57,242 nucleotides of DNA from positions 1 to 57,242 of IMG/VR virus record IMGVR_UViG_3300017917_001302. One strand, 5' to 3'. Below the pieces are notes generated by a model. That model did not search any database. It was not told where the DNA came from and saw nothing but the letters and a program-made list of their open reading frames with translations. Made by a program: the position numbers and the translations under genes. Source of the stretch: a virus. Position 1 is the first letter of the stretch; each line of letters begins with the position of its first letter. Shown in pieces: positions 16,318-53,617 of the stretch.

Positions 16318-16325
16318 TATTTATG
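16318..16325 (-). promoter_or_regulatory. Late promoter variant (CATAAATA), minus strand
   Basis: CATAAATA on the minus strand, 27 bases before the ATG at 16291 and overlapping the stop codon of the 1276-aa gene. One mismatch at the first position from the T4 consensus. Its spacing matches the other late promoters of this window. Confidence 0.6.
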
Positions 16326-21914: not shown

Positions 21915-21937
21915 CGAGTAACTCCATTATCTCATAC

Positions 21938-21945
21938 TATTTATC
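21938..21945 (-). promoter_or_regulatory. Late promoter variant (GATAAATA), minus strand
   Basis: GATAAATA on the minus strand in the 42-base gap between two fibre genes, 24 bases before the ATG at 21914. One mismatch (first base) from TATAAATA. It would express the 584-aa fibre and the 1276-aa adhesin. Confidence 0.6.
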
Positions 21946-21956
21946 AGGATCTAAAT

Positions 21957-24065: not shown

Positions 24066-24084
24066 TTGCCGCTCCTAATTATTC

Positions 24085-25887
24085 TTATGATATAAATGTC
24101 CATGATCCTGCTACCAATTGGAACGTTTTAACAACTCTTGATATTCCTATAATAGGAGCCGGCACACTAACTGTGTTAAACGCAACGTTCGTTACAGCAA
24201 ACGCTGTTCCTCCATCAGCTGTTCTAAATTCAGTACTGTTATCTAATACCAATAATGGGTTCAAATTAACCTGCGTTGGAGAGTTAGATAATGTACTGCA
24301 AAGTAATCTAGCAATGGTTCCATTTCTGTATTCTACAGGCGGCGCTAAAGATGTTAAAATAGTTGCAATAGAACTATTTGAAATACCATCTGACACGTCA
24401 ATCGAGAACAATAAAGCTCGTGTCTGCAATTCATCATCGACATATTCTTTAGTAGCTGCGTCCTGCGGTGCGGTGGGGTTCGCTAATCCTTCTATTTTCG
24501 GAGATCCGATTAATACAATATTTCCTGTACCGTTGGGAGCTATCTCTAGATCTTGATTAGTTACTAATGTAGAAATTCTATTATTTAAAAATTCTATATA
24601 AGGTGTTGGCGGATCTCCCGGAACTAATATCGGGCCGACTCTTAGTTGTGTCTGAGTACCGAAAGAAGTAACACCAGGAATACTAGTAATCGACGGACCT
24701 AACGAATTAGCAGTAATAACATCTAATCCGTTGATCTTATAAGCCTTTCCTGTAGCTAAATTAAAATGCTCTGTGCTATCCCAAGATCCTCCGGCCTGCG
24801 ACCACAAAATAGAATGATCGCTGGCGCCTTTTAAGATTAGACCGCCGCCGTCTGCATAAGCATCGGTAGGTTCTGGAGTTCTTGCTAATTCAATATTTTT
24901 ATCTTCTACTGTTAAAATAGACGAACTTAACGTTGTTACTGCACCTTTAACTTCAAAATTTCCCTGAACTGTTAGATCGCCACCGATGTACACTTCACTA
25001 TCTGTCTCTTCTCTGTAAAAGTTAACAGTTCTTGTAGCTGTCTCAACGAACATCGCAGGTTCTTGAATAACACCCCTACGAAGATTAAGCGTAAAGTTTC
25101 TATTAGACGCAATATTCGCTAATAATATATTACCGTTCTGTACTTGAAACAAACCCTGGCCAGCATCACCAATAACTAAACCTAAGTTAGAAGTTAAAAT
25201 TAACTGTCCGTTAATAATGTTAGAGGTATCATTTCGAACATAAACGTTTGCTGGTTGTCCACCCAACTGTTCTGCGTTAGTAGCAGTGACATTAAATTTA
25301 ATACCGCTCAATGTTCCTGCATTAAATCCTGGAACTATTGAGCCGTCAAATCCGCTAATAGGAACCTTAGGCGTAAAAGCGTCCTTAGCGAAAATACCTA
25401 ATAATATACCGTTATTGTATAAGATTGTGATAACACGATTTTGATTCAGTGTATCAAGCAGACTAACTACTTTTAAACCCGACAGACCTTGACTAACAGA
25501 ATAATCAGGTCCAAGTAAAATAGTCTGTGTTCCGTCAAAGAAATACAATTGCTTGTCAATATCGTTAAACCATAGGTCTCCTGTACCTAATGTTGTTGGC
25601 TGACTGTTAGCGATAGTTGCCGAACTAACTGGCTGAAAAGCCAGGCCGTTATAAACTTTTAATTTTAATTCTGCTGTGTCGAACCAAATTTGTCCTCTAA
25701 TTGGTTTTGTCGGAGCTGCTGAACCAGAAAAATTCTCTAAGATTTTAATAAAGTTTTCATTAAGTGCTTCGCCAAAGCCGCTGTAATTTTTTCCTATAAG
25801 AGTGATATTAGTAGATAATGTATCAACTTGGCCGTCGGCTACTGTTGCTAAAATACTACCATCTGTTTTATTAATAATATATGCCAT
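24085..25887 (-). CDS. Tail fibre protein (shared N-terminal module), 600 aa
   Basis: A 600-residue fibre. Residues 1-130 are the shared module (NITLIGKNYSGFGEALNENF, then IRGQIWFDTAELKLKVYNGL), with VPISGFDGSIVPGFNAG after it. The middle contains fibre repeats (GDLTVQGNFEVKGAVTTLSS, EDKNIELARTPEPTDAYADG), and GLANPTAPQDAATKEYVDDE near residue 480, a stretch common just before fibre tips. Unlike its neighbours it has neither the collar domain nor the G2-like end; the last about 110 residues are a distinct beta-domain. It follows the 688-aa fibre by ten bases and is probably co-transcribed from the 28644 promoter. Confidence 0.75.
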   Translation of the reverse strand: MAYIINKTDGSILATVADGQVDTLSTNITLIGKNYSGFGEALNENFIKILENFSGSAAPTKPIRGQIWFDTAELKLKVYNGLAFQPVSSATIANSQPTTLGTGDLWFNDIDKQLYFFDGTQTILLGPDYSVSQGLSGLKVVSLLDTLNQNRVITILYNNGILLGIFAKDAFTPKVPISGFDGSIVPGFNAGTLSGIKFNVTATNAEQLGGQPANVYVRNDTSNIINGQLILTSNLGLVIGDAGQGLFQVQNGNILLANIASNRNFTLNLRRGVIQEPAMFVETATRTVNFYREETDSEVYIGGDLTVQGNFEVKGAVTTLSSSILTVEDKNIELARTPEPTDAYADGGGLILKGASDHSILWSQAGGSWDSTEHFNLATGKAYKINGLDVITANSLGPSITSIPGVTSFGTQTQLRVGPILVPGDPPTPYIEFLNNRISTLVTNQDLEIAPNGTGNIVLIGSPKIEGLANPTAPQDAATKEYVDDELQTRALLFSIDVSDGISNSSIATILTSLAPPVEYRNGTIARLLCSTLSNSPTQVNLNPLLVLDNSTEFRTADGGTAFAVTNVAFNTVSVPAPIIGISRVVKTFQLVAGSWTFIS

Positions 25888-25897
25888 GTCTTTAACC

Positions 25898-27964
25898 TTA
25901 GAACGCAGGTGGTCCTGAACGTATAATGTAATTTAATGTTAGATAGGGATTCATAATTGTAAAAGGCTGATTCAACGAACCATTGGTTCTAACACTACCT
26001 GTATTTGGCAGATACTGTGATTGACCGATAGCTGTTGGACCTCTATCTGAAAATGCTCCGATATCTAATGGAACCGCAGTATCAACTCTGGTTGCATAAT
26101 ATTGCTGACCAGTTGAACCTCTCATAGTATGTTCGTGATTTGGTAAATTAGATGTGGTCAATGTATTAGATGATGATCCTCCCGATCCGCCCAAGTTATC
26201 TGCAGCAGTTCCCGGAACTCTATCAACGTTGCCGCCGCCGGCATCTACATATCCACCAACTGTGTTAGGAACAACACCCGTATTATCCATGTTATCTCTA
26301 CCTAGAGCAAATCTACCACGCAGATCTGGAAGTTTAAATGTGTTAACTCCTAATGACGTAACTCCATAAATTGTGCCGATCACGTCATATAAATCACTAT
26401 ATTTCGATCTTTCAACCTCGCTACCATCACATAATAGATAACCATAAGGAACATTATTACCGGCAAAAGGCATTATTGCACCGATAGGTACCGCAAGGTC
26501 CCCCACAAACACATTTCTTCTTTCTTTTAATAAACCAGAACCTGGTCTAAAAACTAAGATAAAATCGTTCGGTGATGATATATTTGGAAACGGTTCATTT
26601 TTACTACTAATAATCGCCGACGTTAATGATGTATTAAAAATCTTTGAAGATCCACCTGACTGGCCGTCAAAGTCTAAGACCTGAGACGTTACATCTCCTG
26701 CAAGAGAAAAAGACGTAATAAAACGTAGGTTAGTAGCTGTAGTCGCATTACCTTCGATATCCCCTTTAAGAGTACCTTCGATAGTATCGGCAACTAAAGA
26801 CTTGGCTCGAACCGTTCCCCATCGTCTTTCAACTGTACCTATATCAAATGCTTCAGTTGTAGCAGGAATTGTAGTTCTTAAAATACTTGTACCTAGAACA
26901 TTAATATCTTGTCCTATCAGTGCATTTTTAGTTACAGCAATACCGCCTGCTGTTCTAATGCTACCGTTATTTAGATTGGTACTTTCTGCAACGTTGGTCA
27001 CTATTAAAGAACCAGATGTTCGAATATTACCTTCAATATCTAATGCTTCGTCAGGAACTAATTTATTAATACCTACTTTATTATCAAAAATTCTTAATAC
27101 AGTAGTAGGCGTTCCCTCTCTGTTAATTTGCAAATCGATAGAACTACCGATCGCAGAGTTATAAATTTTAGAAGCAGTTGTAGAGGTTGATAAACTGAAT
27201 GTGCCATCAACACCTAATGTAATACCTTGGTTGTTTCTGATGTTAATACCAAATTCAACAGTATTAACAACATCAGATCGCAAGAACCTAGAAGCAGGAA
27301 CTTCAGTGTCAAGAATGTTTAACGCATCGGCGTTTTTAGCAGTTCCATATAACTTAGGCAATGCCTGTGTTATATCGACTTTTTCTTCAGTAATATTAAT
27401 ACCAGTTCTGATAACCGGAAAGCCAACGATTGTTTGTTTAGGAGTAAAAGTATTTTTACTAAAAATAATAACTGGAAGATCTTCAACATAGAAAGTTAAA
27501 ATAACTTGGTTTCGGCTATCTGAATCTAGAACAGTTTCAACCAAAGGACCGCTTCGTACTCCGGAACTAAATGTCGGTCCAACTAAAATCCATCTCTTAC
27601 CTGAGAAAATATATAACTGCTGATTAACAGTATCAACCCATAGCTCGCCAACCTTAGATTCTAAAACTGCTGGTTCAGTTACGCTTCGTTGGATTGTACT
27701 GGCTGCTTTCCAATTTGAACCATCCCATAGCTGTAAAGAACTTGTTGTGGTATCATACCACAATTGACCTTCAACTGGATTTACTGGATCATTCTCGGAA
27801 GCAAAATTTTCTAATAGAGCAAGAAAATTTTCTGCAATTACCTGTCCGTATCCTGTAACATTTCTTCCAGGAAATCTCAAAGAGGTATCTGTACTAGTAC
27901 TGTTATCATAAACTGTGATAGGTACCTTATTTTGTTTGTCTGTAAAATTAACAATATATGGCAT
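25898..27964 (-). CDS. Tail fibre protein with phage tail-collar domain
   Basis: A 688-residue fibre. Residues 1-130 are a diverged copy of the shared module (DTSLRFPGRNVTGYGQVIAE, NFLALLENFASENDPVNPVE, GQLWYDTTTSSLQLWDGSNW). The shaft includes RTAGGIAVTKNALIGQDINV and KLYGTAKNADALNILD. From residue about 495 there is a tail-collar (short-tail-fibre) domain: GAIMPFAGNNVPYGYLLCDG, then YSDLYDVIGTIYG, FKLPDLRGRFALGRDNMDNT, a Gly-Ser-rich region, and a final NPYLTLNYIIRSG. This is the hallmark of T4 gp12-type fibres, which attach irreversibly to the host surface. It is the second gene of the fibre unit, three bases after the 215-aa gene, with GAGG as ribosome binding site. Confidence 0.85.
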   Translation of the reverse strand: MPYIVNFTDKQNKVPITVYDNSTSTDTSLRFPGRNVTGYGQVIAENFLALLENFASENDPVNPVEGQLWYDTTTSSLQLWDGSNWKAASTIQRSVTEPAVLESKVGELWVDTVNQQLYIFSGKRWILVGPTFSSGVRSGPLVETVLDSDSRNQVILTFYVEDLPVIIFSKNTFTPKQTIVGFPVIRTGINITEEKVDITQALPKLYGTAKNADALNILDTEVPASRFLRSDVVNTVEFGINIRNNQGITLGVDGTFSLSTSTTASKIYNSAIGSSIDLQINREGTPTTVLRIFDNKVGINKLVPDEALDIEGNIRTSGSLIVTNVAESTNLNNGSIRTAGGIAVTKNALIGQDINVLGTSILRTTIPATTEAFDIGTVERRWGTVRAKSLVADTIEGTLKGDIEGNATTATNLRFITSFSLAGDVTSQVLDFDGQSGGSSKIFNTSLTSAIISSKNEPFPNISSPNDFILVFRPGSGLLKERRNVFVGDLAVPIGAIMPFAGNNVPYGYLLCDGSEVERSKYSDLYDVIGTIYGVTSLGVNTFKLPDLRGRFALGRDNMDNTGVVPNTVGGYVDAGGGNVDRVPGTAADNLGGSGGSSSNTLTTSNLPNHEHTMRGSTGQQYYATRVDTAVPLDIGAFSDRGPTAIGQSQYLPNTGSVRTNGSLNQPFTIMNPYLTLNYIIRSGPPAF

Positions 27965-27967
27965 TTA

Positions 27968-28615
27968 TTATACCTCTGTGAAACCAGTTAAACTTTGAAT
28001 TCTAATCGTGTAATCAATTTGAATCAACCTGTTCAATGATTTTTGAACAGGGTGAAAAATTACATGAGTTAATAATTTTCCGTTGCCGTCTGGGTTATAG
28101 CTTTTAAGTCCTAATTCGTCGAATACGAAATTTCCGCTAAGATCCTGGCTATTGTCGAAAGCTTCTTGACCATCTGGCTCACCATAATCTAATAAACAAC
28201 TAACAATAATGTCACTATAGGTAGCACCGCTAATATGACGTATTTCCATTCTATTTCTATTTGGGTCTACGTTTTCAATAGCTGTTTGATCGACAACTTT
28301 TCTATAAGTTTGATTGTAAAGGCTAGTGTTTACACCGACTGTATTTGGGGTTAGATATGTAATAATTCCCGTAGGATCTACGGTGGTTCCGCCTGTTCCA
28401 AAAACCATTTCATAAATAGTTCCTTGCCCTTGATTTGAAAGACTATTCACCATGGCTACTGACATGTTTTCGTAATGAATCGCGTTTCTTTTATCGATAA
28501 AGACTTCTTTCGTTTCTGGATCGAAAATTTTAATGTGGCCTTCGAAATGAAAGCCCCCTAATTCGTCGGGCGATTTTTGGGCTTCTTGGGCAGTTTCTTG
28601 TATATTTTCTGACAT
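27968..28615 (-). CDS. Putative virion structural protein, 215 aa
   Basis: A 215-residue acidic protein. A disordered N-terminus is followed by GGFHFEGHIKIFDPETKEVF, KRNAIHYENMSVAMVNSLSN, a GQGTIYEMVFGTGGTTVDPT turn, and a beta-rich C-terminal half ending FHPVQKSLNRLIQIDYTIRI. This sequence style matches virion structural proteins lying between the baseplate and fibre genes of aquatic T4-like phages (recalled). An upstream in-frame ATG at 28639 would add eight residues. It is not preferred because it has no ribosome binding site and lies where the late transcript would just begin (promoter 28644-28651), while 28615 has GAG six bases before it. Possibly a fibre-attachment or baseplate edge protein. 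Confidence 0.7.
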   Translation of the reverse strand: MSENIQETAQEAQKSPDELGGFHFEGHIKIFDPETKEVFIDKRNAIHYENMSVAMVNSLSNQGQGTIYEMVFGTGGTTVDPTGIITYLTPNTVGVNTSLYNQTYRKVVDQTAIENVDPNRNRMEIRHISGATYSDIIVSCLLDYGEPDGQEAFDNSQDLSGNFVFDELGLKSYNPDGNGKLLTHVIFHPVQKSLNRLIQIDYTIRIQSLTGFTEV

Positions 28616-28643
28616 TTTGTTCTCGTTTTCAGGTTTCATAGTG

Positions 28644-28651
28644 TATTTATT
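28644..28651 (-). promoter_or_regulatory. Late promoter variant (AATAAATA), minus strand
   Basis: AATAAATA on the minus strand, overlapping the stop codon of the giant baseplate gene. By T4 geometry transcription would begin near 28638, so the next usable ATG is 28615. The same octamer precedes gp6 and gp48 here. Expected to drive the structural protein and the following fibre genes. Confidence 0.6.
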
Positions 28652-31600
28652 ACAGAACTTTAGTGGACTTCTGTCGGATGAATCTAGCTATAGCTGTTTC
28701 ATTCTTTAATAATGTTTGTCCTTTGCTAGGATTAGATTCTGATCTTTCGTACCATACCGACCCTTTGCGTCTAATTACTGTGATTCTAGTACCAGCAGGC
28801 AATGCTTTAGTTATCCTAAAATACGGTGTAGTTCCAGTGACTGAGAATTCAGCTTCAATTTGTATATCTCCCACAGGACTATACATTCCTTTGGTTTCGT
28901 CAAATACCGTTAAAGAATCTTTACGTAATCTCTTTCCGGATACAAACACTTCAATTTCATCACAAGAAAAATGTGTTTCGGGAATGCTGGTAAATTCTGT
29001 AAATGCCACTGTACCAGAACCGTCTGCAGGACCAGTAGCTACAAAAATCATACCTACTACATTATCAGGAGCACCGTATAGAGTAAAATCAGTAGTACCT
29101 AAAGCAACGATTCTATAACGTAGACCAGGTTGCATCACATGAGCACCGAAAATATGATCTCTTGTTTCTCGGAACCATGTGGTTTTGTCTGATCGTGTAG
29201 GTACAAAAGGCAATGGGCCTATCTCAACTGTGCTGCCGTCGCTGACAAAATCAAATCTTTCCTGTTCTTCTGTATATGGCAATTGTTCAGAAACACTTAC
29301 ATCAACTACGGCAGATCCAGCAGAGTGTGTTACAGGAATGGCTGTTCCTTGACTACCTCTTCTTAATTGTGATAAGGTATTGCCCTGCTTAATCAGATAT
29401 TCGATTCTTTCAGATCCTATCGTAACGATTCCTGGTATATTTCTAGATCTAATCGGTTCAGCTAAATCGGAAGCATCGTTGACTATTATTTCAGTATCAT
29501 AATAATTCAAATCTTGTGCAAGGACACAATCTGTTTCTGAGAATCTATTGAATCTATAAATGTTTAGCATGTCCTTGTTGATTTCATAAGCTGAAGGTAA
29601 AGAATATGTATCGCTGGCATACTGAACTATTTTAATTTCATCGGTTAATTGACCTGTATCCTTTAAGTACACTTCTCCGTAAGGCAATTTTACATAAAAG
29701 TCTTGATTTAGAGTTAATCTTTGACCGTTTCTATAAACATAGACATAACTGTCGGATAAAGGTTTTCTAGATAAAACATATTTAAATTTGCCCCCTTCGT
29801 ATTGATCTGAGACAATGCTTAACGAAGGATATTCACCAAACCAGGTAACATCTATGTCATCTGTAGGATTCAAAGTCACTGTACTATCAATCCTTAAATT
29901 ATTATCTTCAATGAAATATTCTGCACGTAGATCGACTTCGATGCGAATCGTATCGTCTTTTGCTATCGAAAGAGGATTAATGATAACCTGGCCCTGATTT
30001 CCGTCATAGGTGTAATCAATAACGAATCTCTTCAAAATATCATTGATATAAACTCTAATATCCCCAGACGTAATAGTACCGATAGGCTCTTGTGGGTCTA
30101 CACCGACTTCGACAATATTATTAACACCGTCATAAACCTTATAAATCGTATCAACACTCTTTAATTGACGACCATTGACTTCTACTAATATCGACGAAGC
30201 AGCAGATGCCCTTGATAAATTCACAAAATTATCAAGATCAAATACTCTTGACGATCCATCAAACATTACTCGCTGTTGATTTATTCTTATCAAAGATAAT
30301 CCTGCAGAATCTGTATCTAGAGCTGCGCCTAGTACAACAACTTTAACAGATTGAGATCTTGCAGGAGCGATTGCAAATTCAACTAGAACCTTATCGAGAG
30401 TATCGACAATTCCTGTGCTAGAAACAAAAGATGCGTCATATTGTACACCGTCAAGTGTGACAAATATATTTCTTGCATCGTTAAAGTTAGCTCTGGTTAA
30501 GAAATATCTTGTTTCGCCGTCGCCGACAAATTCGGAATAATCCAATATTGCGATACCGCCTACTCCCAACGAAGTTATTTCAATTACCGATCCTGCGGGC
30601 GGTGCTGCTACAAATTCAATCGTTGAGTTGGTAAAATCGATAGTATAATTAATTGTACTATCACCTTGATATTCTTGTTTTACTTTATCTACAAACACCA
30701 TCACAGAATTAGCTTCGAAAATTCTTTGACCAATGTCGTACAATTTCTTAATTCCGTCACTGATTGATATTTTAACCTTAAACGGTGCTGCGGCAGCAGG
30801 GGTGAAATTATAAACCTTGATACTAACCGAATCTAAAAACTGGCCTGGTACATTTTCTTCAGGAGCCGGTACATTTTCTGGGCTGATGAACTTACCGCCG
30901 TCGATAGAAATTTCTTCTGCTGTTTTACCGGTGGCAGTCACGTAAGCTCCGCTCATGGCACTTAATGTTCCTCCGCTGATATTTGTATCGATAAGATTAA
31001 TATCAGTGATTGACACTGAGCCGTCACTGTCAAGGGGTCTGAATATTAAAGTATCGCCAACTGAAGTATTAAGGAATCCCTGTATCTGAATAACTGAGGT
31101 CGAACCGTCACCAACAAATGTAGGTATCAAAGCGTTAGGATTAGTGATTGGACCTAGATGCATTGTTGATTCGAATCTTAGATCCGGTTGCCATTCATTG
31201 TTTGGAGCGGCATAAATCCAATCTATTAAACTCTTGCTAAATTCAAAAGTTACTAGAACATGATTAGTTGGTCTAACGATTGGTAATGGCTCGATTGCAC
31301 TATCCTCGGCTTGCCATGTTTGTACGTCCCATATATTATTCGGTGTATCTAAAGATCTATATTTTTTAGTAGATATACCTGTGGTCAAATGATTATTATT
31401 CATGAACCAATAATCGTTAGGATATTTAAAAATCCTAATGTCGGGATTTTGTTTTCCAACATAATAGTCTAGAGCAACATATCCGGGAGCCAAGGAAGCC
31501 GGAATTCTTACATACGTTTGATTAAATTCGGGCGATCCTGCATTAGTTATTACTATTTCGTTAGTAGGATTTCTAGTTACAGTTACTCTAGTATCAGGCT

Positions 31601-34600
31601 GAACATATGTTCCATAAACATACCAACCCGTTTGAATGGCGGCTCCTGCATCTCCTAGATAGCCTTGTTGACCTGCAACTAATCCTGCGTTTTCTAGATA
31701 TGTTATGGTATTAGTTACTGTTGTAGATCCGTCATAATCAAACGGCGGATTTACTTCATGGTCTAAGGTAACTTTCTCGATTTCTACAAAATTCGGATCA
31801 TCAATTCGAATAGTTTTATTATCAGAAATACGTTTTAGGTAAATCGATAATATCTTTCCGTTTTCCGGAACTGTAGGTAGGGAAACAAAGGCTGTAGAGC
31901 CGTCCGCTACATAATAATAATCAGAGTTAGCTGCAACGCTGTCCCAGCTATCAGTGAACCAAGGCAAAGCATCCCATCCACCTGTGATGTCAAACGTTGT
32001 ACCCTGAATCTGAACTCCGCCAAAGTCGAAACCAGTCATTAATTGAGAAAAATCTCTCGAAGTTATGTTTCCAGCATTATCAGTTAATACAGGAAGACCT
32101 TTCATTCCAGGTGTAGGTTTATAAAATTTTTCAATTCTGCCTATACTATCAAATATAGAAGAATCTTTTTCAAATGTAACAAGTATGACCGAATTAATCG
32201 ACGGAGGAACAATAAAAATTAATTTTCCTTTAAGGACGGTATATGTTCCAATATTTTGGAAATAAAGATTAACAGAATATTCACTGTTTAACAGCAATTG
32301 ATCATCTTTGAATACTGTAATTTTACTTTTATCTAAAGTGGGAGGATAATCTAATTCAAAAATCGATGTTTGACCGGTAGCGACAAAACTCTGTACATAT
32401 TGATTTGTATTATACAATGCCCTCTTATCAATACGATCAAATTTTAAAGTAAAATCAAAAGAACGAGCCTTGTTATCTCCTAATACGATAGATGCTCTAG
32501 CTTTATCGAGAGAAGATCCGTTGCCTCCAACTAGCATCACAGAAGGTGTTTTAGTATATCCTAATCCTGGATTGGTTACTTTAATCGCAGAAACTTTTCC
32601 GTTTGAAATATAGGCCTGCGCAGTAGCTCCGGTTCCGTCACCTTCAATAATTACCTGCGGTGGTGCAGTATAATCTGATCCACCATTTGAGATCAAGATG
32701 TCGACTACCGATAAACCTTTCGAATCAGTCCACCATTTCCATGGATAATCAGACAGTCTATTATAGAAATTATTTACAGGAACGATTTTTCCTAATTCTT
32801 TTGAATATGCAGGAGGTAAATCAAAATCTATAGCAGAAACATTTACATTTTCTAAATTTTTATATCTGCTAGTGTATTCTCTTATAGAAGTTCTATAGGG
32901 TTTAATTTCTTCGACATAACGCTGATAGCTATCAAGATTATCGTTTTTATAATTTAATTTCTGTTCAAGGTCGCCAACATTGTGTATAGCATTTAAGAAA
33001 CTAGTCTTAAATGCCCAGTCAATGACTGGCTGTTCTGCAAAGGCAAATTTTACCGAAGAGAAAAATAAATTATTCCATTCAACTCTTAAATCGTCAATAA
33101 AAATATCTTCTTTAACTGCTTTAAAGATATTTCTCATTTCTCTAGTCGGCTCAATATCATACTCTACAGTATCGTATGTTCCTAGGTTATCAAATCCAAC
33201 AGCTGAATTTTTTATACTATAGATAGTCGGTAATATCTTTATAGTTCCGTTATTCCTTCCAACAAGTTCAAATTCTTCAACTATGTTTTCTATAGAGTTG
33301 GTTAGCTTCTTCATTAATGCCCAACCACCCTGGCCATATTCTTTAATTTTTACTAAATCGTCTTTTTCTAATTCAACATCTGTTAAATTATATAAATTTT
33401 GTATTTCTTTAACGACTCTACTTTCAGCAGAATATGTAGGGGCATACCAGTCAATGTATTGCCAATATCTCGGAGTATCAAATGCTTGAGATCTGCTTCT
33501 AAAGAAAACTTTTCTGATAGAATCCCACGAATAGATACTCCATAGGCCTTGTAAATTACTGTCGGTTCGTACCAATACTGAGAATGATCTAATTTTTACA
33601 TTAGCATAGGTATAACGTTTACCCTTGTTTGTAACTGTTACTGACGACACTCTACCTTGATTATCGATCGTTACATCTGCTGTAGCTCCGATACCGTCTC
33701 CTTCGATAGTAATGAAAGGAGTATTCTTGTATCCAAAACCTCTATCGTCTATATCAATTGTTTCAATTTCGCCGTTGATGATGTTTACAGATAATACAGC
33801 TTCTTTAATTCTAACTGTACCAACATTTTGTAGATCAATAAAATTATCAACTGCTACATCATAAATGTTTAGGGATTCGCTAGGAATTCCATCTCTAGAA
33901 TTTAAATTAACAAAATTAATTGTGTCTGAAAATGGTCTTGTTAAAAGAATAGAATTAATTTTATCAAATGTAATTCTTAATGCTAACGTTCTATCAACGA
34001 ACATACTTTGAATAGGTCTAAAAGATATGCCGTATTTTAATTTAGTTGGTAGGTCAGGATCCGGAACTCTGTTGCCTGCACCGTCGATTCCGACTAGACT
34101 ATCTAACCATTTAGTTTCTAATATTTCACTAGGAACGCTATCGATGCTTCCTTCAGTTAGCAGTTGATATTCTCTATGTACGAGATTTTGCTTTGTGTCA
34201 TTGATATATTCAATGTTCAACAAACACTGATCGCTGGTTAGTGTTTCTGAGAAATTATAAGTTAAAAATTTATCTTTATCTATTAATGCGATAAACGGTA
34301 GTCCGCTACCGATAGGATTAGAAATTAAAGATGCTACATCAGATGCGGCCAATCTTCTTCCTGCAATATTCTGAGGAATTATAGATGTATTTCTTACCCA
34401 ATAATAATATTTGGTAGAAGTAGGTTGTTCTGTGTTAGGATTGAATAAAACTTTTATACTGTAAACATTATTATTAGGATAAAGAGGTTGACCAGAAATT
34501 CCATTGGCTAAACCTTCTGGCGTATCAGCTAATGCGCTCCAGTCGGACGGTAATAAAACTGTTTCGACCCACTCGTAAACATCAATAGTTGAGCCATAGG

Positions 34601-37600
34601 ACTGAGAATTCCAATTTCCTATTCTATAGGAAATATCTCCTTGCTCATATAAATTCCACTTGGCTGTAGACAAGTTCCACCATAACTTACCTACATTTTT
34701 TTCAAACCATGCTACGTCGGGATCAACTATTTGATCGTCTGTGCCTGTAGTATATACTGCAGGGTCGTAAAGAGTTTTAAATGAAATTTCCTGATCTGCA
34801 ACTGATAATATTTTATTTTTAAAACTGTCAACTATATCTAAATCTCTAATTTTAATATTGTTTTTAGCGTCGATTAAATTAATATTTTTTATCACAGATA
34901 TATCAGTTAGATCTTGCGATTTAGAAATGACTGTCAATGAATCTTTATTAGGATCTTTTCTGAACATCCTCACGCGACCAAGTTTACCTGCATCGGTAGT
35001 ATAATCTGGGGAGCCGACGACTACAACCGAATCGCTGCAACTAATAGAAAAACCAAAAGATTCATTGTTTAAAAAAGTAGCTTCTAAGCGTTCTGCTAAG
35101 AAATATCTCTGTTCTTTTCTTTCAAATACATATCCTCGACCTGGGTATCCCAGATCGTCAAAGAATGTTGTTCTGCCCTTATCATAGATAGTTCCTAGAG
35201 TCTGATCAAAAAATGTAGGCTGATTGTATAAAGAATTTTTTGCACCTACTGCGATTCTTTCTGTGCCATCACTGATGCAAACACTATAACCAAACTGCTC
35301 ATTGCTGTATTTTTCAAAACTCTGCAATTTCTGTTTTAATCTAAATTCTACATTATTCAAATTAGCAGTCTTGAATACATAGACAGCACCTTGATTTATG
35401 AAATCAATATCTGCATCTGGGCTACTAATTACTAATGTAGTGCCTGTAAGATCTAGATCTAAGCTGAAACCAAATCTATCTCCCGATTCTAAAGATTCAT
35501 TGCCTATATCGCTAAACAAAGATAAAGAATCTGATGTAATAGTTTGTACAAGCTCGTAACGATCAGTGACACTTCGTTTGTAAACAAAGACCTTACCTGT
35601 TCTAATGCCTTCGGTAGTTCCGACATTGGTCCACGGTGCTCCTCTGTCAGGAACTTGATCTTTTACTGTGTAAGTAGAATCGCTGGTAGGATCAGGATCG
35701 TCTAATCTGTAATAGTTAGTTCGATATTTTACTACATCGCCTTCTCTGTATTCTTGGTAAGAATTATACACTCCCCTAAATTTAGGAAAGTATTTTCCAT
35801 CGCTATTAGGAACACCTACAGCTAATATAGATCCGTCGCCGTTCATAGTTAAATTATGACCAAACTCATCTCCGGCTTTAACTAATTCTGCTAGATCGTT
35901 TTCAGATAACAGACCCATGTCTAGTGTTGATCCATCATCCTCTATAGAAGCACTGGACGGAATTGAATTGTGGGTAGCAATATCATCTAATTTTTTCCAG
36001 GACTCAGACGTTGTTATTCCGGTACTTCCGTCACCAAATGAATCTTCTAAGGCTTCGTATAAATCATTATCATACCAAACAATAGAACCTTTAGGATATG
36101 ATTCTTCGAGATTATATACTCCGGCATAATTTTGATTTTCTAAATGTCTCCAGCCCTGTGTTCTTACTAAAGAAAATTCAAGAGATACAGTACATCCAGT
36201 TCCGCCTGCTGGGAACACAGATGTTGTTTGGGTTGATGAAACTGTAGTAATAAATTTACCCGGATCAGAAATAGTTAAACTTCTTACTACTCCATTCAGT
36301 GTAGACACGATAAACGATGCAGTTCTTCCGCCGATACTTACCGATAATACATCGCCGTCGGTATAATTAGAACCGCCATTAACGATAGTCACATTAGATA
36401 TTTCAAAAGTTCCAGTAGTATCGTATTGATAGAGATATACTCTACCTTTTCTTTCGACCGCGCCAGGGGCTCCTACAGCCATATAGTAAAGAGAACCTTT
36501 TTTACTAATAGTCACAGAAGAACCAAATTCTTCACCGTCGCCTTGCCGTGGACTTAAAAATATGTCAGTTAATTCCCAAAAAGTTGATCTGTATTCGTAA
36601 ATCGAAATCAGTCCTTGATTAGTATAACCTTGATTTCTTCCAATATTGTTAACTTCTACTATATCTGCTAATGCCCAAAGATCTGAATCAATATTGATCG
36701 TACTGCCGTCTCCGACGATATTATCTAATGCCCTCCATAAACGTCCGCCATAATAGACTATTTCGCCTTGTAGATATGTTGCAGATGGATCAAAAGTTCC
36801 TAAGAAAGAACTCGGAACACCGCTGGCATTAGGAGAAGCGATAACTAAAAATCTCTCGTCCGGACTGACTGCCATGCTTTTTCCGAAAGAGAATCCTAAA
36901 CGATTTACTAGATTTTCAGGAGGAGAAATAATCTCTCTAACTCTTAAACCCTGAGAGGTTTCAGAATAAATCATTACATATCCAGACTGGGGCATACTAG
37001 CTACCACGTGTCCTGTATTCTTTAGATACAGTACCTTATAACCTGTGCTTCTAGGAGTTGTGATTCCGTATTCTAATAAATCTTTAAACTGATATTGTCT
37101 AGATTTTTCAATGACTTGCCATTTATCGCTAGTATTATCAATCCATAATTTTGCACCAGAAGGTAATAAAGCAGTTGAACCTGGATCTATCTGTTCATAT
37201 GATAATTTTCTTGTATCGACGAATAAAGAAGGATTGCTTACAACTGAGCTATTGTCAAATTCTGGATCTGGATCTGCTGCTTTGACCTTAACCCGTATTA
37301 ATTTAAAATCTATTTGGTATACTTTATAAAATCCTGTGAGGTTAGGAATATTTTCAAATCCTACAATATCGTCAACTGAGATACTGTGTATTCTATTAAA
37401 TTTTATCTCAACTACATCTTTTTTCTTTTCGATTTCTTCAATAATCAACAAAGGTTCTTTGTTATATCTTAATACCGTCCAGGTATTTTTGTCAAAAGTC
37501 ACCCATACATGATGATTATCTCTAAAAGTACTAATATCAAGAGTTAAAATTTCATCTCTGTTTTTAACAATATGATCGACTTGATCTGCTCGAACATATC

Positions 37601-40600
37601 CTGCTGACCTATTTAGATCCTCAAAATTCTTTAAAGGATTTATATCTTTAGTAAACACAGAATCAACTAGAGTAAACTTAGAAGAGTTAATTCTGTAATA
37701 TTGATCTTGTGGAAATTCTTCCTGAGAATCTGTGATCAAGATTGGCTGAGGATTGATAACAAATTTATCTTTGATGATTTCAAATTCAACTTGATCTGTT
37801 TGATCGATTCCGCCAAACTGACCTACTCTAAATGCCCACTCTTCTTTAAGAACCAAGCTGTCATCCGCTGTTCTGCTGGTTTTATCAAATACTTTGACTA
37901 GGGCATTTGCGGTTCCTTTTTCTCGAATGAAACCTTGATATAGTCTAAACTGTGTTACTTCATCTTCTGCAAGACCCTGTAGATAGTCTCTGGTCTGGTA
38001 ACCGATAGCATGCCTGCCTAAATCTCGCTGACTAGCTCCTATACCGTCACTGTCTAGATTATAATAATCTTCAAATTGATTTATTCTATAATCAAAGTTC
38101 GGTACTAGTTTCTTAGATGGAGTAGAATCTAATTTACTCCATTTCGTATCGTCAAATGTTTCTACACCAACTTGATTTACTTGACTGACATAATTAAATG
38201 ATTGATATGTTACTATATCTCCTAATCTATAGTCAGTGAATGGTTGCCACGGGTCAATTGATACATTGTCAAATAAGAATCCCGGGCTAGTATAATCTCC
38301 ATCCCAATCTAGTGTCCTAAATCCTCTGCACTTAATTCTTTCTTGACGATATCCTGTGGTTTTATCATAGATGACATCATTAAAAACTGTTCTATCATCA
38401 AACACAACCACGTGTTCTTTAAGAACATAGTAAATCTTTAAAAAATAAATGCCGGCAGTGGTATTTGTTGTTTCAATTGAAAACTTCTGAAAGTCTCTCT
38501 TAACATTTATAAAATTTGGTAGTAACGGTAATCCGTCATTTCTTAAAATTTTATAATCATAGAAATCGTTAAGTACACTATCAACCACTCCGATCGGATT
38601 TACTATTTCGATCTTATCTGCAATTGGACTGAGAGATATTAAAGAACCAACTGCCCAATTATGGATCGTCCAGAACATAAACTCTTTACAGGCCGTAGAA
38701 AAATCTTTAGGAGTTTGAGTCGCAGGATCGTATCCGTCAAATACCATTCCCTTTGATCTTAGATATTCTTCATAGCCTAATAAAAAATCAACCACAGACT
38801 GTATTGTGTTAAATTCTGTGCCATAAGGAATTTGTTTTGTCTGTGTTTTATTAAAATTAATTCTTCTAAATGCATCTACACCGCCAACCAAGGGTAGCTT
38901 GGGAATTTTTTTCCAAAGAGATACATTTAATGTTGTTTCAGATGTATGGCTTTTTAAGCTTCTATAAAATTCATTGTTGTATCTTACAATCACACCATTA
39001 CCAAAAAATGTTTCAGGTGCCCATTCTGCAAATTTTTCGCTTACTCCGCCGACTGTCATGAATACATCGGATTGATTAGGTACTGCTTGATAAAAATCAA
39101 AAACTGGATTTAATTTGTCGTAACCATTTAATTTCCAACCCCTTTCTGTTTTTTCTAAAATTACACCACTGTATGTAAAGGTAGAAATTGGAGAGCTAAC
39201 ATTAAAAATAATGTCGTAGTTCTCTGAAGGAATAAAAACCGCACTAGATTTAGAGCTTGGAGATTTACTATCCAAAATATATTTTTGATTATCTTTATCA
39301 ACGAATCCAGAGATTCTGCTAGAAAGCGCAACGTCTATTCTATCAATAATATCCGATATAATACTAGATGGCAATCCTCTGGTTTTTAGATAATCTACTA
39401 CATATGAAATTAATCCGCTGGTTCTCTGATCTACCGCAGGCATATTAATATCGCCCGGTTTGAAGAACCAATTAGAAGATTTATTAATTGTCTGACCAAT
39501 TATGTTTGTAGTAATAGAGGCTCTATCGAGACTCTGTGGTACAAATTCAAATGGTCTTAAAAGCGATAGTGCAGCCGTTACAGCGAAAGGCCATTCTGAG
39601 CTCGTTCTCCATGCATGTTCCGGAGGAGCGATATCACCAATCTTGAAACTTCCTTTATTATTAATTAAAACAAAATTCTGAGCAAGATTTGACGTTAATG
39701 GGCTTAATAGTTTTCCTTCATCATCTGTAGGAATATGAGTCATCAATGATGGACGCTTATATCTATCGTAGGTACCTGCTCTAGAACCCCTACGTATAAT
39801 ACCGTCTCGAAGATCTTCCCATAGAATTAAATTATTTCTTGTATAAGGAGCAGGACCATATTCCTGATCCCACCAATCTGGTTTCTCGCTGAAACCTAAC
39901 ATTTCCCACGGATCGGTATGCGGTCTATCAGTATCATAAAACCACTGATAAACTCCTCTCCACCAGCCTGGAAGATTTTCAGAACCGTCAGGACTGGTCA
40001 TGTTAGTATAAGTGTAGGTAAATGAATTCTCGCTGTCGAAATATTGATTTGAAGTATAATCTATATTAGTATCTGCTAACCAGTTTAAAAAATATCTATC
40101 AACAATTTTGTCTAAAGCATTTTTAGAATAAAAACCAGTCTTGTAATATCCACCTAAAACTTGATCATTGTCAAACACCCTATCATTATATTCTTGTTTT
40201 AAATTATTATAAATTCTAAATTCTAATTCTAATATTAGATCATCTCTAAAATCATTAAATGCAGCAATTCTACTACCGTCGTGTCCTTCTATCATCCATC
40301 GAGGGGTGATATAGGTATCATCATAATATCTTCTCGGAACAAACTTTTTATATAATCCTAGTTTGGTCGGAGTCGCTGGAATAAAACAGAAACTGGTAGA
40401 TACATATTCTCTAATCTGTATCTTGTCTCCTTCTTCAAGATCAACTTTTAATAAAACAAAACCAAAATTTATATTAAATTCATAATCTCTTTTATGTAAA
40501 AGCTGCTTGTCATTTAGATAAACATAGACAGCTTTATTTGATAAAGCAGACAGATCAAATTTTTCATTCAATGCAAAAGTCTTAATTCCAGGGTCGTCTA

Positions 40601-43430
40601 CTTCATAATCGATGCTGGTAAAAGCACCTGTTCCTATCATATCAGAATCAAAAAACGGACTAGAATCGACTTTTGTTTTAGTCATTTCTTTTAAAATAAC
40701 ATCTACAAAATCTACTATATCTTGATTAAAAAATAATTCCTCAGACAGTTTTATAAAATTACTTTTAAATGTCGAATATGAATTTTTTGCGTATTCGATA
40801 GACTTAATAATATTTGCTTGTTTGTCTGTTAACAAAGCAACTGCTAATACTGGCAATCCTCCGTGTTTTAAGAAACGCTTACCGAACTGTACATAATCTG
40901 ATAAATCTCTTAGATTATTCGGTCCCACAACTCCGCCAAGTAATCTATCATCAAACTCTAGAGCTGTTTCTACATGATCGACAAATGTACCTAATGTAAA
41001 TGTATTAAGATCTTGATTTAACGGATTTTTTTCTAAACCTACAGGAATTTCATAATATCCCCGGTCAGGGTCAATGTCTGCAAAAATTTTAATAACCACT
41101 GTGTCATTTTTAACAAATTCAGTTTCGAATGTAAATTGACTTAATGTGTTAGTATAAGGCACTGATAATTTTTTACCGTTAAGATAAAAAACTATTAATA
41201 CTGGCCGGCCTTCTTCTCGTAGCTTTTCTAAATGATTCCAATCTACTGTAAAAAATTCAACAGTACTGGTATTTTCTTTGATAACGACATGATCAATAAT
41301 CGGTTGTAAGAATCTATCATCGGTTCGAATCCAACCATTTTGATATTCTAACGAAGGAGAAAAAATCTTATAGAAACCTACTTTAATCTCTGTTTCAATC
41401 GTATTTCGAGATTCTAAATCTTTATATGTAAATGTATCTTGTTCCCAATCAAATTCAAATTGAATGTCGCCTACATTGTTAATATTCAAATAACTAATAG
41501 GAAAACCTAGTTCTGCATCGACGATCGAATTACCTATTTTATAACTTAGTAATTCAGAACCGATAAATGAAGAAACTGGATATTTTTCAGTGTCCGAAAA
41601 ACTAATGCCTTGAGAATCAAACACATCGAACAAAGGAGGTTGATTAACTTCTGTTTTTTTCTGGCTTAGGACCCAAGAACCTTTATAAAAATGAAACATT
41701 AAATTTTTATATTTTAGGCCTAGATTAATTAAAACAGATTCTCCTTCATTTGATTCTGAATTTTCTGTTTTTCTAAGACTAATTTGTCTTACGCCGTTGT
41801 GTGTGATAAATCTTACTTCATATATTCTGTTGTTAGCTAATGTATCAGTGTCAGCTACGACCAATAACTTTGCACCGTCAAATAATGGCTCGCCGTCTAC
41901 GATGTAACCTCTACTGCCTTCAATTGTAGAAAATACGTCTGTAGTGAAGTCGTCGATGAAATCTACCGCTCCTTTGTATATAGATCCGTGATTAATTAAT
42001 TGAATGTTAGATCTAAATTCAATGATTGGTCTCTTTGCTCTAAGATTCTCATCAGATTCAAAATCAGTCCCGTTAACTTTGTGTGCATACTCTAATACAG
42101 ATCGGTGGAACCAGCGATTATATCTGCTCCACGGATTGAAGTCTTTGCTTCCTCTGTCAATAGTAATGTAATCTTTAGTTCCTGGAAATCCTGATGCATC
42201 ATCAAAGGGACCTGTATCAAATCCGGTATCGTCAAATTCGACATCTGGAAAAGATGTATTAATTGTTGGAACTTTTAAATCATCAAAATTTACCAGTGAT
42301 ATTGAGGATCCGACTCCTTGCACTATCCAATTGCCTGTGGCGTATTTTGCAGGGATAACTTTTCCGCCGAATGTTATTTTTAGTCCATTGGTAAATTCTA
42401 CACCGTTGGCCGATCTATAAGTTGTCATACCAACGATTTCTCTATCAACATTGATGCTGGTATTAGACTCTATGTTAGAAATTATAAAACGGCCAAAACG
42501 ATCAGGCTCAGTTAGACTTTGATAAAATAATGTTTCGGGTGCATCAAACGGAACGGTAAATGTAACAGTACCAGATTGGGCACCATTATTTGTAATTCCT
42601 TTAACATAATCTAATGCCGAACCTTGGCCTGCCTGTTCAACGAATTCCCAATCTTGACTATTTTCATCTATGGTACTACCGTCTTCTGGAAATACTGTAG
42701 TTTTAGCTTTCCATAACTTTCCGTCAAATACCACTAACTGATCTTTGAAATAAGTTCTATTAGGATTGTATAATAAAGAACCAGTATCATAATTTGTTCT
42801 AATATAAAATCCATTGTTAGGAACATTAACTATAAATCTATAAGTCTGTCCTCGATATAATGTAATCGTAGGATTATTTGTAAAACCGTCCGGTGCAAAT
42901 ATAAAGACCGGTCCAGTTCCGAGGGAAACCCTATAGGTTGCCTGCACTTCGTCGTTTTGACCGAATACTTTTATCGAAGGCGGGCCGCCTGGTTGCCAAT
43001 AGTACTCTCGATAATTTATAAACATGTCCCAGTTTATGGGAGGATTCCAACTATAATGTTCATGTGTGCAAAAAAGATCATCTCTTTCGCTGTCGTTACC
43101 GAAAAACTTTAATTGATTTTTTAGGTCAAGATAATCGTAATATCGCTCAATCTTATCTTGATTTTTATCTTTGATGATAACACCGGTTTCCAACTGGTAT
43201 CTGCTTCTCAGAGTTTCATCATCATCAAGGTAGATGTCTTGCCCTCTGTATGTCTTACCGTATCGTTTTCCAACATAACCAACAATTTTTTCGAGAGATC
43301 CTGGCTGTATTAATGGATCAACTACTCCTGATAAAAACTTGTCGTTAGTAGATGTCTGAAAAATCTGTGGTAATAATTCAGAAGACTTCCTAATAGGTAA
43401 TTGACTTTTTGGATAATACTTGTTTGCCAT
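28650..43430 (-). CDS. Giant 4926-aa baseplate/virion structural protein at the gp7 position
   Basis: One uninterrupted frame of 4926 codons, directly after gp6 where T4 has gp7 (1032 aa). The start reads MANKYYPKSQLPIRKSSELL; residues about 50-150 have baseplate-type text (YVGKRYGKTYRGQDIYLDDD). Visible modules: six chitin-binding-like segments (near 221, 1477, 1727, 2214, 2434 and 2551, each with a G-D/E-h-V-h-Y-x-x-x-h-Y/W pattern); an integrin-type FG-GAP propeller at about 2175-2830 with six repeats (for example GDEFGHNLTMNGDGSILAVG, GDRFGFSLDLDLTGTTLVIS); three G-x-x-Y-T repeats (about 2347, 3224, 3584); and several V-x-x-x-G-x-x-L beta-sandwich repeats towards the end. It probably forms the wedge body plus peripheral surface-binding arms. 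Cleavage is not excluded. It lies behind gp6, three bases away. Confidence 0.8.
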   Translation of the reverse strand: MANKYYPKSQLPIRKSSELLPQIFQTSTNDKFLSGVVDPLIQPGSLEKIVGYVGKRYGKTYRGQDIYLDDDETLRSRYQLETGVIIKDKNQDKIERYYDYLDLKNQLKFFGNDSERDDLFCTHEHYSWNPPINWDMFINYREYYWQPGGPPSIKVFGQNDEVQATYRVSLGTGPVFIFAPDGFTNNPTITLYRGQTYRFIVNVPNNGFYIRTNYDTGSLLYNPNRTYFKDQLVVFDGKLWKAKTTVFPEDGSTIDENSQDWEFVEQAGQGSALDYVKGITNNGAQSGTVTFTVPFDAPETLFYQSLTEPDRFGRFIISNIESNTSINVDREIVGMTTYRSANGVEFTNGLKITFGGKVIPAKYATGNWIVQGVGSSISLVNFDDLKVPTINTSFPDVEFDDTGFDTGPFDDASGFPGTKDYITIDRGSKDFNPWSRYNRWFHRSVLEYAHKVNGTDFESDENLRAKRPIIEFRSNIQLINHGSIYKGAVDFIDDFTTDVFSTIEGSRGYIVDGEPLFDGAKLLVVADTDTLANNRIYEVRFITHNGVRQISLRKTENSESNEGESVLINLGLKYKNLMFHFYKGSWVLSQKKTEVNQPPLFDVFDSQGISFSDTEKYPVSSFIGSELLSYKIGNSIVDAELGFPISYLNINNVGDIQFEFDWEQDTFTYKDLESRNTIETEIKVGFYKIFSPSLEYQNGWIRTDDRFLQPIIDHVVIKENTSTVEFFTVDWNHLEKLREEGRPVLIVFYLNGKKLSVPYTNTLSQFTFETEFVKNDTVVIKIFADIDPDRGYYEIPVGLEKNPLNQDLNTFTLGTFVDHVETALEFDDRLLGGVVGPNNLRDLSDYVQFGKRFLKHGGLPVLAVALLTDKQANIIKSIEYAKNSYSTFKSNFIKLSEELFFNQDIVDFVDVILKEMTKTKVDSSPFFDSDMIGTGAFTSIDYEVDDPGIKTFALNEKFDLSALSNKAVYVYLNDKQLLHKRDYEFNINFGFVLLKVDLEEGDKIQIREYVSTSFCFIPATPTKLGLYKKFVPRRYYDDTYITPRWMIEGHDGSRIAAFNDFRDDLILELEFRIYNNLKQEYNDRVFDNDQVLGGYYKTGFYSKNALDKIVDRYFLNWLADTNIDYTSNQYFDSENSFTYTYTNMTSPDGSENLPGWWRGVYQWFYDTDRPHTDPWEMLGFSEKPDWWDQEYGPAPYTRNNLILWEDLRDGIIRRGSRAGTYDRYKRPSLMTHIPTDDEGKLLSPLTSNLAQNFVLINNKGSFKIGDIAPPEHAWRTSSEWPFAVTAALSLLRPFEFVPQSLDRASITTNIIGQTINKSSNWFFKPGDINMPAVDQRTSGLISYVVDYLKTRGLPSSIISDIIDRIDVALSSRISGFVDKDNQKYILDSKSPSSKSSAVFIPSENYDIIFNVSSPISTFTYSGVILEKTERGWKLNGYDKLNPVFDFYQAVPNQSDVFMTVGGVSEKFAEWAPETFFGNGVIVRYNNEFYRSLKSHTSETTLNVSLWKKIPKLPLVGGVDAFRRINFNKTQTKQIPYGTEFNTIQSVVDFLLGYEEYLRSKGMVFDGYDPATQTPKDFSTACKEFMFWTIHNWAVGSLISLSPIADKIEIVNPIGVVDSVLNDFYDYKILRNDGLPLLPNFINVKRDFQKFSIETTNTTAGIYFLKIYYVLKEHVVVFDDRTVFNDVIYDKTTGYRQERIKCRGFRTLDWDGDYTSPGFLFDNVSIDPWQPFTDYRLGDIVTYQSFNYVSQVNQVGVETFDDTKWSKLDSTPSKKLVPNFDYRINQFEDYYNLDSDGIGASQRDLGRHAIGYQTRDYLQGLAEDEVTQFRLYQGFIREKGTANALVKVFDKTSRTADDSLVLKEEWAFRVGQFGGIDQTDQVEFEIIKDKFVINPQPILITDSQEEFPQDQYYRINSSKFTLVDSVFTKDINPLKNFEDLNRSAGYVRADQVDHIVKNRDEILTLDISTFRDNHHVWVTFDKNTWTVLRYNKEPLLIIEEIEKKKDVVEIKFNRIHSISVDDIVGFENIPNLTGFYKVYQIDFKLIRVKVKAADPDPEFDNSSVVSNPSLFVDTRKLSYEQIDPGSTALLPSGAKLWIDNTSDKWQVIEKSRQYQFKDLLEYGITTPRSTGYKVLYLKNTGHVVASMPQSGYVMIYSETSQGLRVREIISPPENLVNRLGFSFGKSMAVSPDERFLVIASPNASGVPSSFLGTFDPSATYLQGEIVYYGGRLWRALDNIVGDGSTINIDSDLWALADIVEVNNIGRNQGYTNQGLISIYEYRSTFWELTDIFLSPRQGDGEEFGSSVTISKKGSLYYMAVGAPGAVERKGRVYLYQYDTTGTFEISNVTIVNGGSNYTDGDVLSVSIGGRTASFIVSTLNGVVRSLTISDPGKFITTVSSTQTTSVFPAGGTGCTVSLEFSLVRTQGWRHLENQNYAGVYNLEESYPKGSIVWYDNDLYEALEDSFGDGSTGITTSESWKKLDDIATHNSIPSSASIEDDGSTLDMGLLSENDLAELVKAGDEFGHNLTMNGDGSILAVGVPNSDGKYFPKFRGVYNSYQEYREGDVVKYRTNYYRLDDPDPTSDSTYTVKDQVPDRGAPWTNVGTTEGIRTGKVFVYKRSVTDRYELVQTITSDSLSLFSDIGNESLESGDRFGFSLDLDLTGTTLVISSPDADIDFINQGAVYVFKTANLNNVEFRLKQKLQSFEKYSNEQFGYSVCISDGTERIAVGAKNSLYNQPTFFDQTLGTIYDKGRTTFFDDLGYPGRGYVFERKEQRYFLAERLEATFLNNESFGFSISCSDSVVVVGSPDYTTDAGKLGRVRMFRKDPNKDSLTVISKSQDLTDISVIKNINLIDAKNNIKIRDLDIVDSFKNKILSVADQEISFKTLYDPAVYTTGTDDQIVDPDVAWFEKNVGKLWWNLSTAKWNLYEQGDISYRIGNWNSQSYGSTIDVYEWVETVLLPSDWSALADTPEGLANGISGQPLYPNNNVYSIKVLFNPNTEQPTSTKYYYWVRNTSIIPQNIAGRRLAASDVASLISNPIGSGLPFIALIDKDKFLTYNFSETLTSDQCLLNIEYINDTKQNLVHREYQLLTEGSIDSVPSEILETKWLDSLVGIDGAGNRVPDPDLPTKLKYGISFRPIQSMFVDRTLALRITFDKINSILLTRPFSDTINFVNLNSRDGIPSESLNIYDVAVDNFIDLQNVGTVRIKEAVLSVNIINGEIETIDIDDRGFGYKNTPFITIEGDGIGATADVTIDNQGRVSSVTVTNKGKRYTYANVKIRSFSVLVRTDSNLQGLWSIYSWDSIRKVFFRSRSQAFDTPRYWQYIDWYAPTYSAESRVVKEIQNLYNLTDVELEKDDLVKIKEYGQGGWALMKKLTNSIENIVEEFELVGRNNGTIKILPTIYSIKNSAVGFDNLGTYDTVEYDIEPTREMRNIFKAVKEDIFIDDLRVEWNNLFFSSVKFAFAEQPVIDWAFKTSFLNAIHNVGDLEQKLNYKNDNLDSYQRYVEEIKPYRTSIREYTSRYKNLENVNVSAIDFDLPPAYSKELGKIVPVNNFYNRLSDYPWKWWTDSKGLSVVDILISNGGSDYTAPPQVIIEGDGTGATAQAYISNGKVSAIKVTNPGLGYTKTPSVMLVGGNGSSLDKARASIVLGDNKARSFDFTLKFDRIDKRALYNTNQYVQSFVATGQTSIFELDYPPTLDKSKITVFKDDQLLLNSEYSVNLYFQNIGTYTVLKGKLIFIVPPSINSVILVTFEKDSSIFDSIGRIEKFYKPTPGMKGLPVLTDNAGNITSRDFSQLMTGFDFGGVQIQGTTFDITGGWDALPWFTDSWDSVAANSDYYYVADGSTAFVSLPTVPENGKILSIYLKRISDNKTIRIDDPNFVEIEKVTLDHEVNPPFDYDGSTTVTNTITYLENAGLVAGQQGYLGDAGAAIQTGWYVYGTYVQPDTRVTVTRNPTNEIVITNAGSPEFNQTYVRIPASLAPGYVALDYYVGKQNPDIRIFKYPNDYWFMNNNHLTTGISTKKYRSLDTPNNIWDVQTWQAEDSAIEPLPIVRPTNHVLVTFEFSKSLIDWIYAAPNNEWQPDLRFESTMHLGPITNPNALIPTFVGDGSTSVIQIQGFLNTSVGDTLIFRPLDSDGSVSITDINLIDTNISGGTLSAMSGAYVTATGKTAEEISIDGGKFISPENVPAPEENVPGQFLDSVSIKVYNFTPAAAAPFKVKISISDGIKKLYDIGQRIFEANSVMVFVDKVKQEYQGDSTINYTIDFTNSTIEFVAAPPAGSVIEITSLGVGGIAILDYSEFVGDGETRYFLTRANFNDARNIFVTLDGVQYDASFVSSTGIVDTLDKVLVEFAIAPARSQSVKVVVLGAALDTDSAGLSLIRINQQRVMFDGSSRVFDLDNFVNLSRASAASSILVEVNGRQLKSVDTIYKVYDGVNNIVEVGVDPQEPIGTITSGDIRVYINDILKRFVIDYTYDGNQGQVIINPLSIAKDDTIRIEVDLRAEYFIEDNNLRIDSTVTLNPTDDIDVTWFGEYPSLSIVSDQYEGGKFKYVLSRKPLSDSYVYVYRNGQRLTLNQDFYVKLPYGEVYLKDTGQLTDEIKIVQYASDTYSLPSAYEINKDMLNIYRFNRFSETDCVLAQDLNYYDTEIIVNDASDLAEPIRSRNIPGIVTIGSERIEYLIKQGNTLSQLRRGSQGTAIPVTHSAGSAVVDVSVSEQLPYTEEQERFDFVSDGSTVEIGPLPFVPTRSDKTTWFRETRDHIFGAHVMQPGLRYRIVALGTTDFTLYGAPDNVVGMIFVATGPADGSGTVAFTEFTSIPETHFSCDEIEVFVSGKRLRKDSLTVFDETKGMYSPVGDIQIEAEFSVTGTTPYFRITKALPAGTRITVIRRKGSVWYERSESNPSKGQTLLKNETAIARFIRQKSTKVL

Positions 43431-53586: not shown

Positions 53587-53617
53587 TTTTTAAAAACAGA
53601 GGCATTAACATATATCT

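Follow-up and report, generated by a model that had tools for sequence, protein, structure and literature searches.

We propose that the 4,926-residue protein encoded in this 57,242-nucleotide viral DNA (hereafter the window) is a structural protein of the wedge locus into which a modular platform for glycan adhesion is built at the rim of the baseplate, a reading that we favor with modest confidence. It would be the second protein of the wedge locus in a jumbo myovirus that presumably infects aquatic bacteria, made with the gp6-, gp25-, gp53- and gp5-like genes and placed in the baseplate; its structural role would fall to two conserved cores (about residues 1-1900 and 2860-3560). The slot between the cores is predicted to hold a β-propeller, with type 5/12 carbohydrate-binding module (CBM5/12)-like and other β modules grafted into its 2-3 and 4-1 loops. 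The propeller would show these modules outward at the rim, where they may bind glycans of the host surface weakly but at many points, either ahead of the dedicated fibres or together with them. The protein family is already known; the lineage-specific slot with its decorated, variable propeller is new and appears undescribed. The features are collected in Table 1.

Table 1. Features of the giant gene and its neighbors, with positions in the window
Feature	Residues of giant	Position	Strand	Basis
Four consecutive fibre/collar genes (688, 600, 702, 584 aa)		20160..27964	-	common N-terminal anchor domain
Conserved 223-aa partner protein		27968..28639	-	phrog_11259 E=2e-70
Giant baseplate-wedge-locus protein, 4,926 aa	1-4926	28650..43430	-	open frame, phrog_10938, same-length sibling L008
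Less conserved C-terminal part	3561-4926	28653..32750	-	conservation profile
Conserved core II	2860-3560	32751..34853	-	blastp to all six reference jumbo phages
Integrin-type seven-bladed β-propeller with inserts (predicted)	2113-2830	34941..37094	-	FG-GAP_2, AlphaFold2, Foldseek, profile
Insert, blade 4 loop 2-3, with CBM-like 2553-2603	2541-2611	35598..35810	-
Insert, loop 4-1 between blades 3 and 4	2352-2525	35856..36377	-	β-repeat and CBM-like 2437-2481
Insert, blade 2 loop 2-3, with CBM-like 2211-2254	2200-2272	36615..36833	-	model DSSP
Conserved core I	1-1900	37731..43430	-	blastp segments of 23-33% identity, conservation profile
CBM5/12-like, core I	1726-1767	38130..38255	-	HMM; 64/64 relatives
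CBM5/12-like, core I	1470-1509	38904..39023	-	best Pfam stretch 1469-1499
CBM5/12-like	221-264	42639..42770	-	HMM 62 bits, weak chitinase match 2rts E=0.84
gp6-like baseplate wedge protein, 1,134 aa		43433..46837	-	phrog_10646 E=4.5e-287, phrog_219 E=2.4e-17

The protein belongs to the family of giant virion proteins encoded behind gp6 in jumbo phages of the RaK2/PA5oct/Atu_ph07 type. It matched the phrog_10938 profile at 1086.8 bits in four stretches, and blastp found it to be homologous to the giants of six isolate jumbo phages: Atu_ph07 gp180 (4,449 aa), Phosso 294 (4,555 aa), PA5oct gp355 (3,857 aa), SCTP-2 gp140 (3,807 aa), CBB gp236 (3,340 aa) and 121Q gp582 (3,323 aa). A profile scan of IMG/VR returned at least 587 relatives, 80 of which were fetched, many with complete frames of 4.0-5.2 kaa. 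Because the jumbo-phage homologs measure 3.3-4.6 kaa, giant size is a family trait and not a peculiarity of the window phage; the original prediction of an enlarged wedge protein was right about the wedge locus and overstated the size as something special. A megablast search of phages with the giant gene gave no match, and a scan of genome contigs for hints of the host turned up three contigs in MAGs, which say nothing useful on that point.

Gene order is conserved along with the protein. The gp6-like gene lies directly upstream of the giant, as had been predicted, in the window, in all 73 testable IMG/VR loci and in five of the six isolates. The exception is SCTP-2, where the gp6-like gene lies at ~231 kb and the giant at 128-139 kb, preceded by a different 3,096-aa ORF. 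On the downstream side, the gene for the 223-aa partner was present in 40 of 40 testable loci and no more than 80 bases away in 37 of them. Family members have been observed in the virions of relatives: CBB_236 was detected by mass spectrometry with 21 peptides and 7.7% coverage (PMC5259590), and the annotation of PA5oct gp355 cites ESI-MS/MS. In phAPEC6, 17 virion peptides were assigned to gp245 (382 kDa), which adjoins the baseplate wedge protein gp244 (PMC7247149) and is taken here as a homolog by size and gene order, without alignment.

Homology between the window protein and the RaK2-like giants covers cores I and II. Core I is common to the window and all six isolates, and identity with the isolates by blastp is limited to about residues 14-1980, 2811-3560 and a short C-terminal stretch; the PA5oct giant aligns to the C-terminal part at 4612-4724. 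A profile self-comparison of residues 3700-4926 found no repeats, leaving the predicted "many β-sandwich repeats" weak. Subtraction of the blastp-aligned core segments gave inter-core slots of ~200 aa in CBB and 121Q, 320-420 aa in PA5oct and SCTP-2 and ~1,500 aa in Atu_ph07 and Phosso. Unlike the slot of the window, those of the isolates have no FG-GAP match, and the long slots of Atu_ph07 and Phosso consist of other sequence. Across the IMG/VR relatives the slot (aligned to window residues 2110-2860) measures 438-1,343 aa, and FG-GAP matches were found in it in all 64 long relatives examined. Slot length tracks the core tree among the relatives, and therefore modules were gained and lost slowly, not freely exchanged.

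We found that the slot carries a predicted seven-bladed propeller. Pfam-A identified FG-GAP_2 (PF14312; E=6.4e-16, 58.7 bits against a curated cut-off of 23), and a scan of the window with the classical FG-GAP PF01839 gave no match; the repeats are of the FG-GAP_2 kind. Six FG-bearing blades begin at residues 2176, 2299, 2520, 2650, 2710 and 2789, in agreement with the six repeats originally predicted at about 2175-2830. An AlphaFold2 model of residues 2110-2860, computed for the window protein with 39 relatives (pLDDT 83.1, pTM 0.78), supported the propeller fold and added a degenerate seventh blade at 2126-2168; by DSSP, 28 modeled strands fit seven four-stranded blades plus an N-terminal closing strand. 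Foldseek against the PDB returned integrin α headpieces among the best matches (4wk2_A, E=6.4e-10, TM by target 0.63) together with other β-propellers, and the slot sequence profile independently matched integrin α-E (E=4.7e-4) and integrin α-4. Among viral models the nearest matches were to FG-GAP proteins from phages and giant viruses, one of them an Atu_ph07 "hemagglutinin" that is separate from the giant.

Integrin-type FG-GAP propellers and their bacterial counterparts have been defined previously (PMC3192720). The window propeller shares with the integrin α propeller its seven blades and the fold match to α heads but is not strictly integrin-type: FG occurs in six of seven blades and FG with the spaced proline in five, the repeats match FG-GAP_2 and not PF01839, the first blade is degenerate, CBM-like inserts are present, and the DxDxDG calcium motif is absent from the whole 4,926-aa protein. 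A tblastn search of phages with the propeller region returned nothing beyond a match of 78 residues in a Phosso gene other than the giant, and the same search with a compact propeller (L061) returned none. The Phosso match lies well away from the wedge cluster, in gene 108 (PV764938.1 57900-68978, ~3,692 aa), and is the sole match to the FG-GAP region in an isolate. Propellers may shift between the wedge protein and separate virion proteins such as Phosso gene 108 and the Atu_ph07 "hemagglutinin". The literature on phage FG-GAP and tail structural proteins yielded no description of a decorated wedge-locus propeller.

The six predicted CBM5/12-like segments were recovered within a few residues of their proposed positions. 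Pfam-A matched CBM_5_12 (PF02839) at E=6.6e-13 and 48.9 bits over the whole protein (cut-off 26.2), with three stretches passing alone. The segments score 53-67 bits with their own HMM, against 3.4 bits for the best of 80 shuffled proteins, and these scores are partly circular because the HMM was built from the same segments. Independent evidence for the putative modules comes from Pfam and from profile matches to chitinase chitin-binding domains (1ed7, E=0.0023; 2rts, E=0.004), the former being the match of the 1470-1509 family profile to the ChiA1 domain. The CBM folds in the AlphaFold2 model are of moderate confidence (block pLDDT roughly 66-87). The module at 221-264 is clade-specific, occurring in 40 of 43 clade I members and 0 of 21 of clade II. 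That at 1470-1509 is present in 61 of 64 relatives and has an equivalent position in Atu_ph07 and Phosso; since it and the module at 1726 are conserved in the core, both may be structural and not acquired.

The remaining three modules lie inside the propeller, and in the model these and the other inserted modules sit only in 2-3 and 4-1 loops. Such loops form the FG-GAP end of the blade, and the 1-2 and 3-4 loops form its other end (PMC3192720). Across the relatives loop 2-3 ranges from 3 to 117 aa in blade 2 and from 2 to 96 aa in blade 4; the 4-1 loop joining blades 3 and 4 ranges from 13 to 297 aa and reaches 468 aa in clade II. Length variation of more than 40 residues was found in 6 of 14 top-face loops and 0 of 13 bottom-face loops in 40 relatives (p about 0.01 in a one-sided Fisher test worked out by hand). 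Clade II shows the same top-face restriction; a 28-residue bottom loop recurs there, and a bottom-loop value of 112 (L060) is probably a misalignment. Compact propellers occur as well (L061, L063, L072 and L086), with no propeller-loop CBM match listed for any of the four. In integrins the face formed by the 2-3 and 4-1 loops carries the ligand sites, and we take the large modules in the 4-1 loop of the window protein to recall the integrin α-I domain. Judged from sequence and model, the placement and variation of the modules match what a binding face would show, in line with the peripheral surface-binding role, with putative sensor arms, that was first proposed. At 35926-36396 (residues about 2345-2502), in the insert that separates blades 3 and 4, the β-repeat at 2345-2397 resembles All3316 of PDB 7b5h (E=1.5e-5), and similar "NGGSxYT" repeats occur at 3229-3280 and 3582-3640 of the giant and in other phage tail families.

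The main rival, a less likely explanation, is that the propeller and its CBM-like modules form a structural hub that docks the four downstream fibres and other virion proteins, so that slot variation would track fibres and not host glycans. The first 100 residues of the fibre proteins are 34-45% identical to those of the first of the four. The shared anchor spans about 90 residues, which hints that one dock takes several fibres, either in turn or side by side; given the shared N-terminal domain, a common dock is expected. The conservation of modules 1470 and 1726 in the core, suggesting structural use of the CBM fold, favors the hub and counts against adhesion, and the tracking of the core tree by slot length also suits a hub. 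We compared the window giant gene with that of L008 (IMGVR_UViG_3300032323_000818), whose product is also exactly 4,926 aa long and 89% identical: the genes differ by 7.5% at codon positions 1 and 2 and by 44% at position 3 (ratio 0.17). Purifying selection acts on the inserts (ratios of 0.13-0.21) about as it does on the remainder of the gene, which fits the adhesion and structural-dock readings alike; a point-mutation arms race in the inserts was considered and dropped, and the missing sign of one, like the absence of DxDxDG and the moderate confidence of the CBM models, counts against adhesion. Two observations speak against the hub. The small slots of CBB and 121Q indicate that docking in general needs no large slot, and module gain and loss are confined to the face that in integrins carries the ligand sites.

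Two precedents bear on the adhesion reading, which we prefer. The wedge protein Gp119 of Vp4 (Herelleviridae) has CBM folds and binds cells; it is enlarged by these folds relative to a close relative (831 versus 341 aa) but differs from the window giant in that the folds are of CBM16/xylanase type, there is no propeller and the protein is far smaller (PMC11406892). Evolved Dit and Tal proteins of siphophages likewise carry CBMs in the loops of a conserved baseplate structural protein, whereas their host domain is of the galectin fold and their CBMs are others (PMC7291167). Our search of the literature found no report of binding by phrog_10938-family proteins. A bolder version of the adhesion reading, which we hold to be doubtful, makes the protein a phage counterpart of the integrin head, in which a wedge-embedded propeller uses its ligand face as a site of module exchange and couples binding directly to the wedge.

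It is improbable that the giant is truly orthologous to T4 gp7 and owes its size to the accretion of domains. Its position, with gp6 before it and a gp10/collar-like gene after it, is that of the 1,032-aa gp7 in T4, but profile similarity was not detectable: none of the 500-aa slices exceeded 5% probability against a five-member gp7 alignment in hhalign. An AlphaFold2 model of residues 1-1012 (pLDDT 81.6) did not have gp7 among its best 50 PDB matches, even though gp7 has been solved (5hx2, 5iv5). Further, the T4 homologs published for CBB include gp6, gp25 and gp53, and gp7 was not seen among them (PMC5259590). The best PDB matches of the residue 1-1012 model were CBA120 TSP4 (E 2e-4) and a baseplate chain of the T4-like KP1; because of TM-scores of 0.1-0.23 they were set aside. 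Of the original interpretation, then, the wedge-locus protein with propeller and CBM-like modules is supported and the homology to gp7 is not. That the giant frame is an artefact, either several genes joined in assembly or an uninformative open frame, has only its unusual length in its favor and is refuted by the same-length sibling L008, with codon-position bias in all domains including the inserts, and by homologs in many independent contigs and in isolate phages, so that the predicted uninterrupted 14.8-kb frame stands as a single ATG-started frame with zero internal stops.

Several neighboring genes were also noted. The first fibre gene carries Collar PF07484 and Gp10_C, and at the end of the fibre block lies a 1,276-aa protein (16321-20151, minus strand) that carries Gly_rich_2 and matches PA14 weakly. 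Beside the tail cluster, 8162-15302 (minus strand) holds mostly unassigned genes, one of which encodes a DUF6473 protein (E=4.9e-10). A radical SAM match in this block stayed below threshold; near the giant in Atu_ph07 and Phosso there are radical SAM genes as well. SbcD/SbcC-like (gp47/gp46) genes at 52735-56406 (plus strand), a stretch that also has a 283-aa ORF at 52735, are divergent from the baseplate cluster and keep the gene order of CBB, 121Q and PA5oct, which have a late sigma factor gene between.

These results show where a poorly explained baseplate giant of jumbo phages gains its length, namely in the propeller slot that separates the two conserved cores, and they suggest a rule for that gain, in which modules are added only in loops of one propeller face. 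The slot offers a defined domain for host-binding work, and the idea of the evolved baseplate protein, drawn from small proteins of siphophages, is widened to take in giant wedge proteins. If the comparison with the integrin head were true, surface binding could contribute to the triggering of tail contraction, with no need for a separate receptor-binding fibre.
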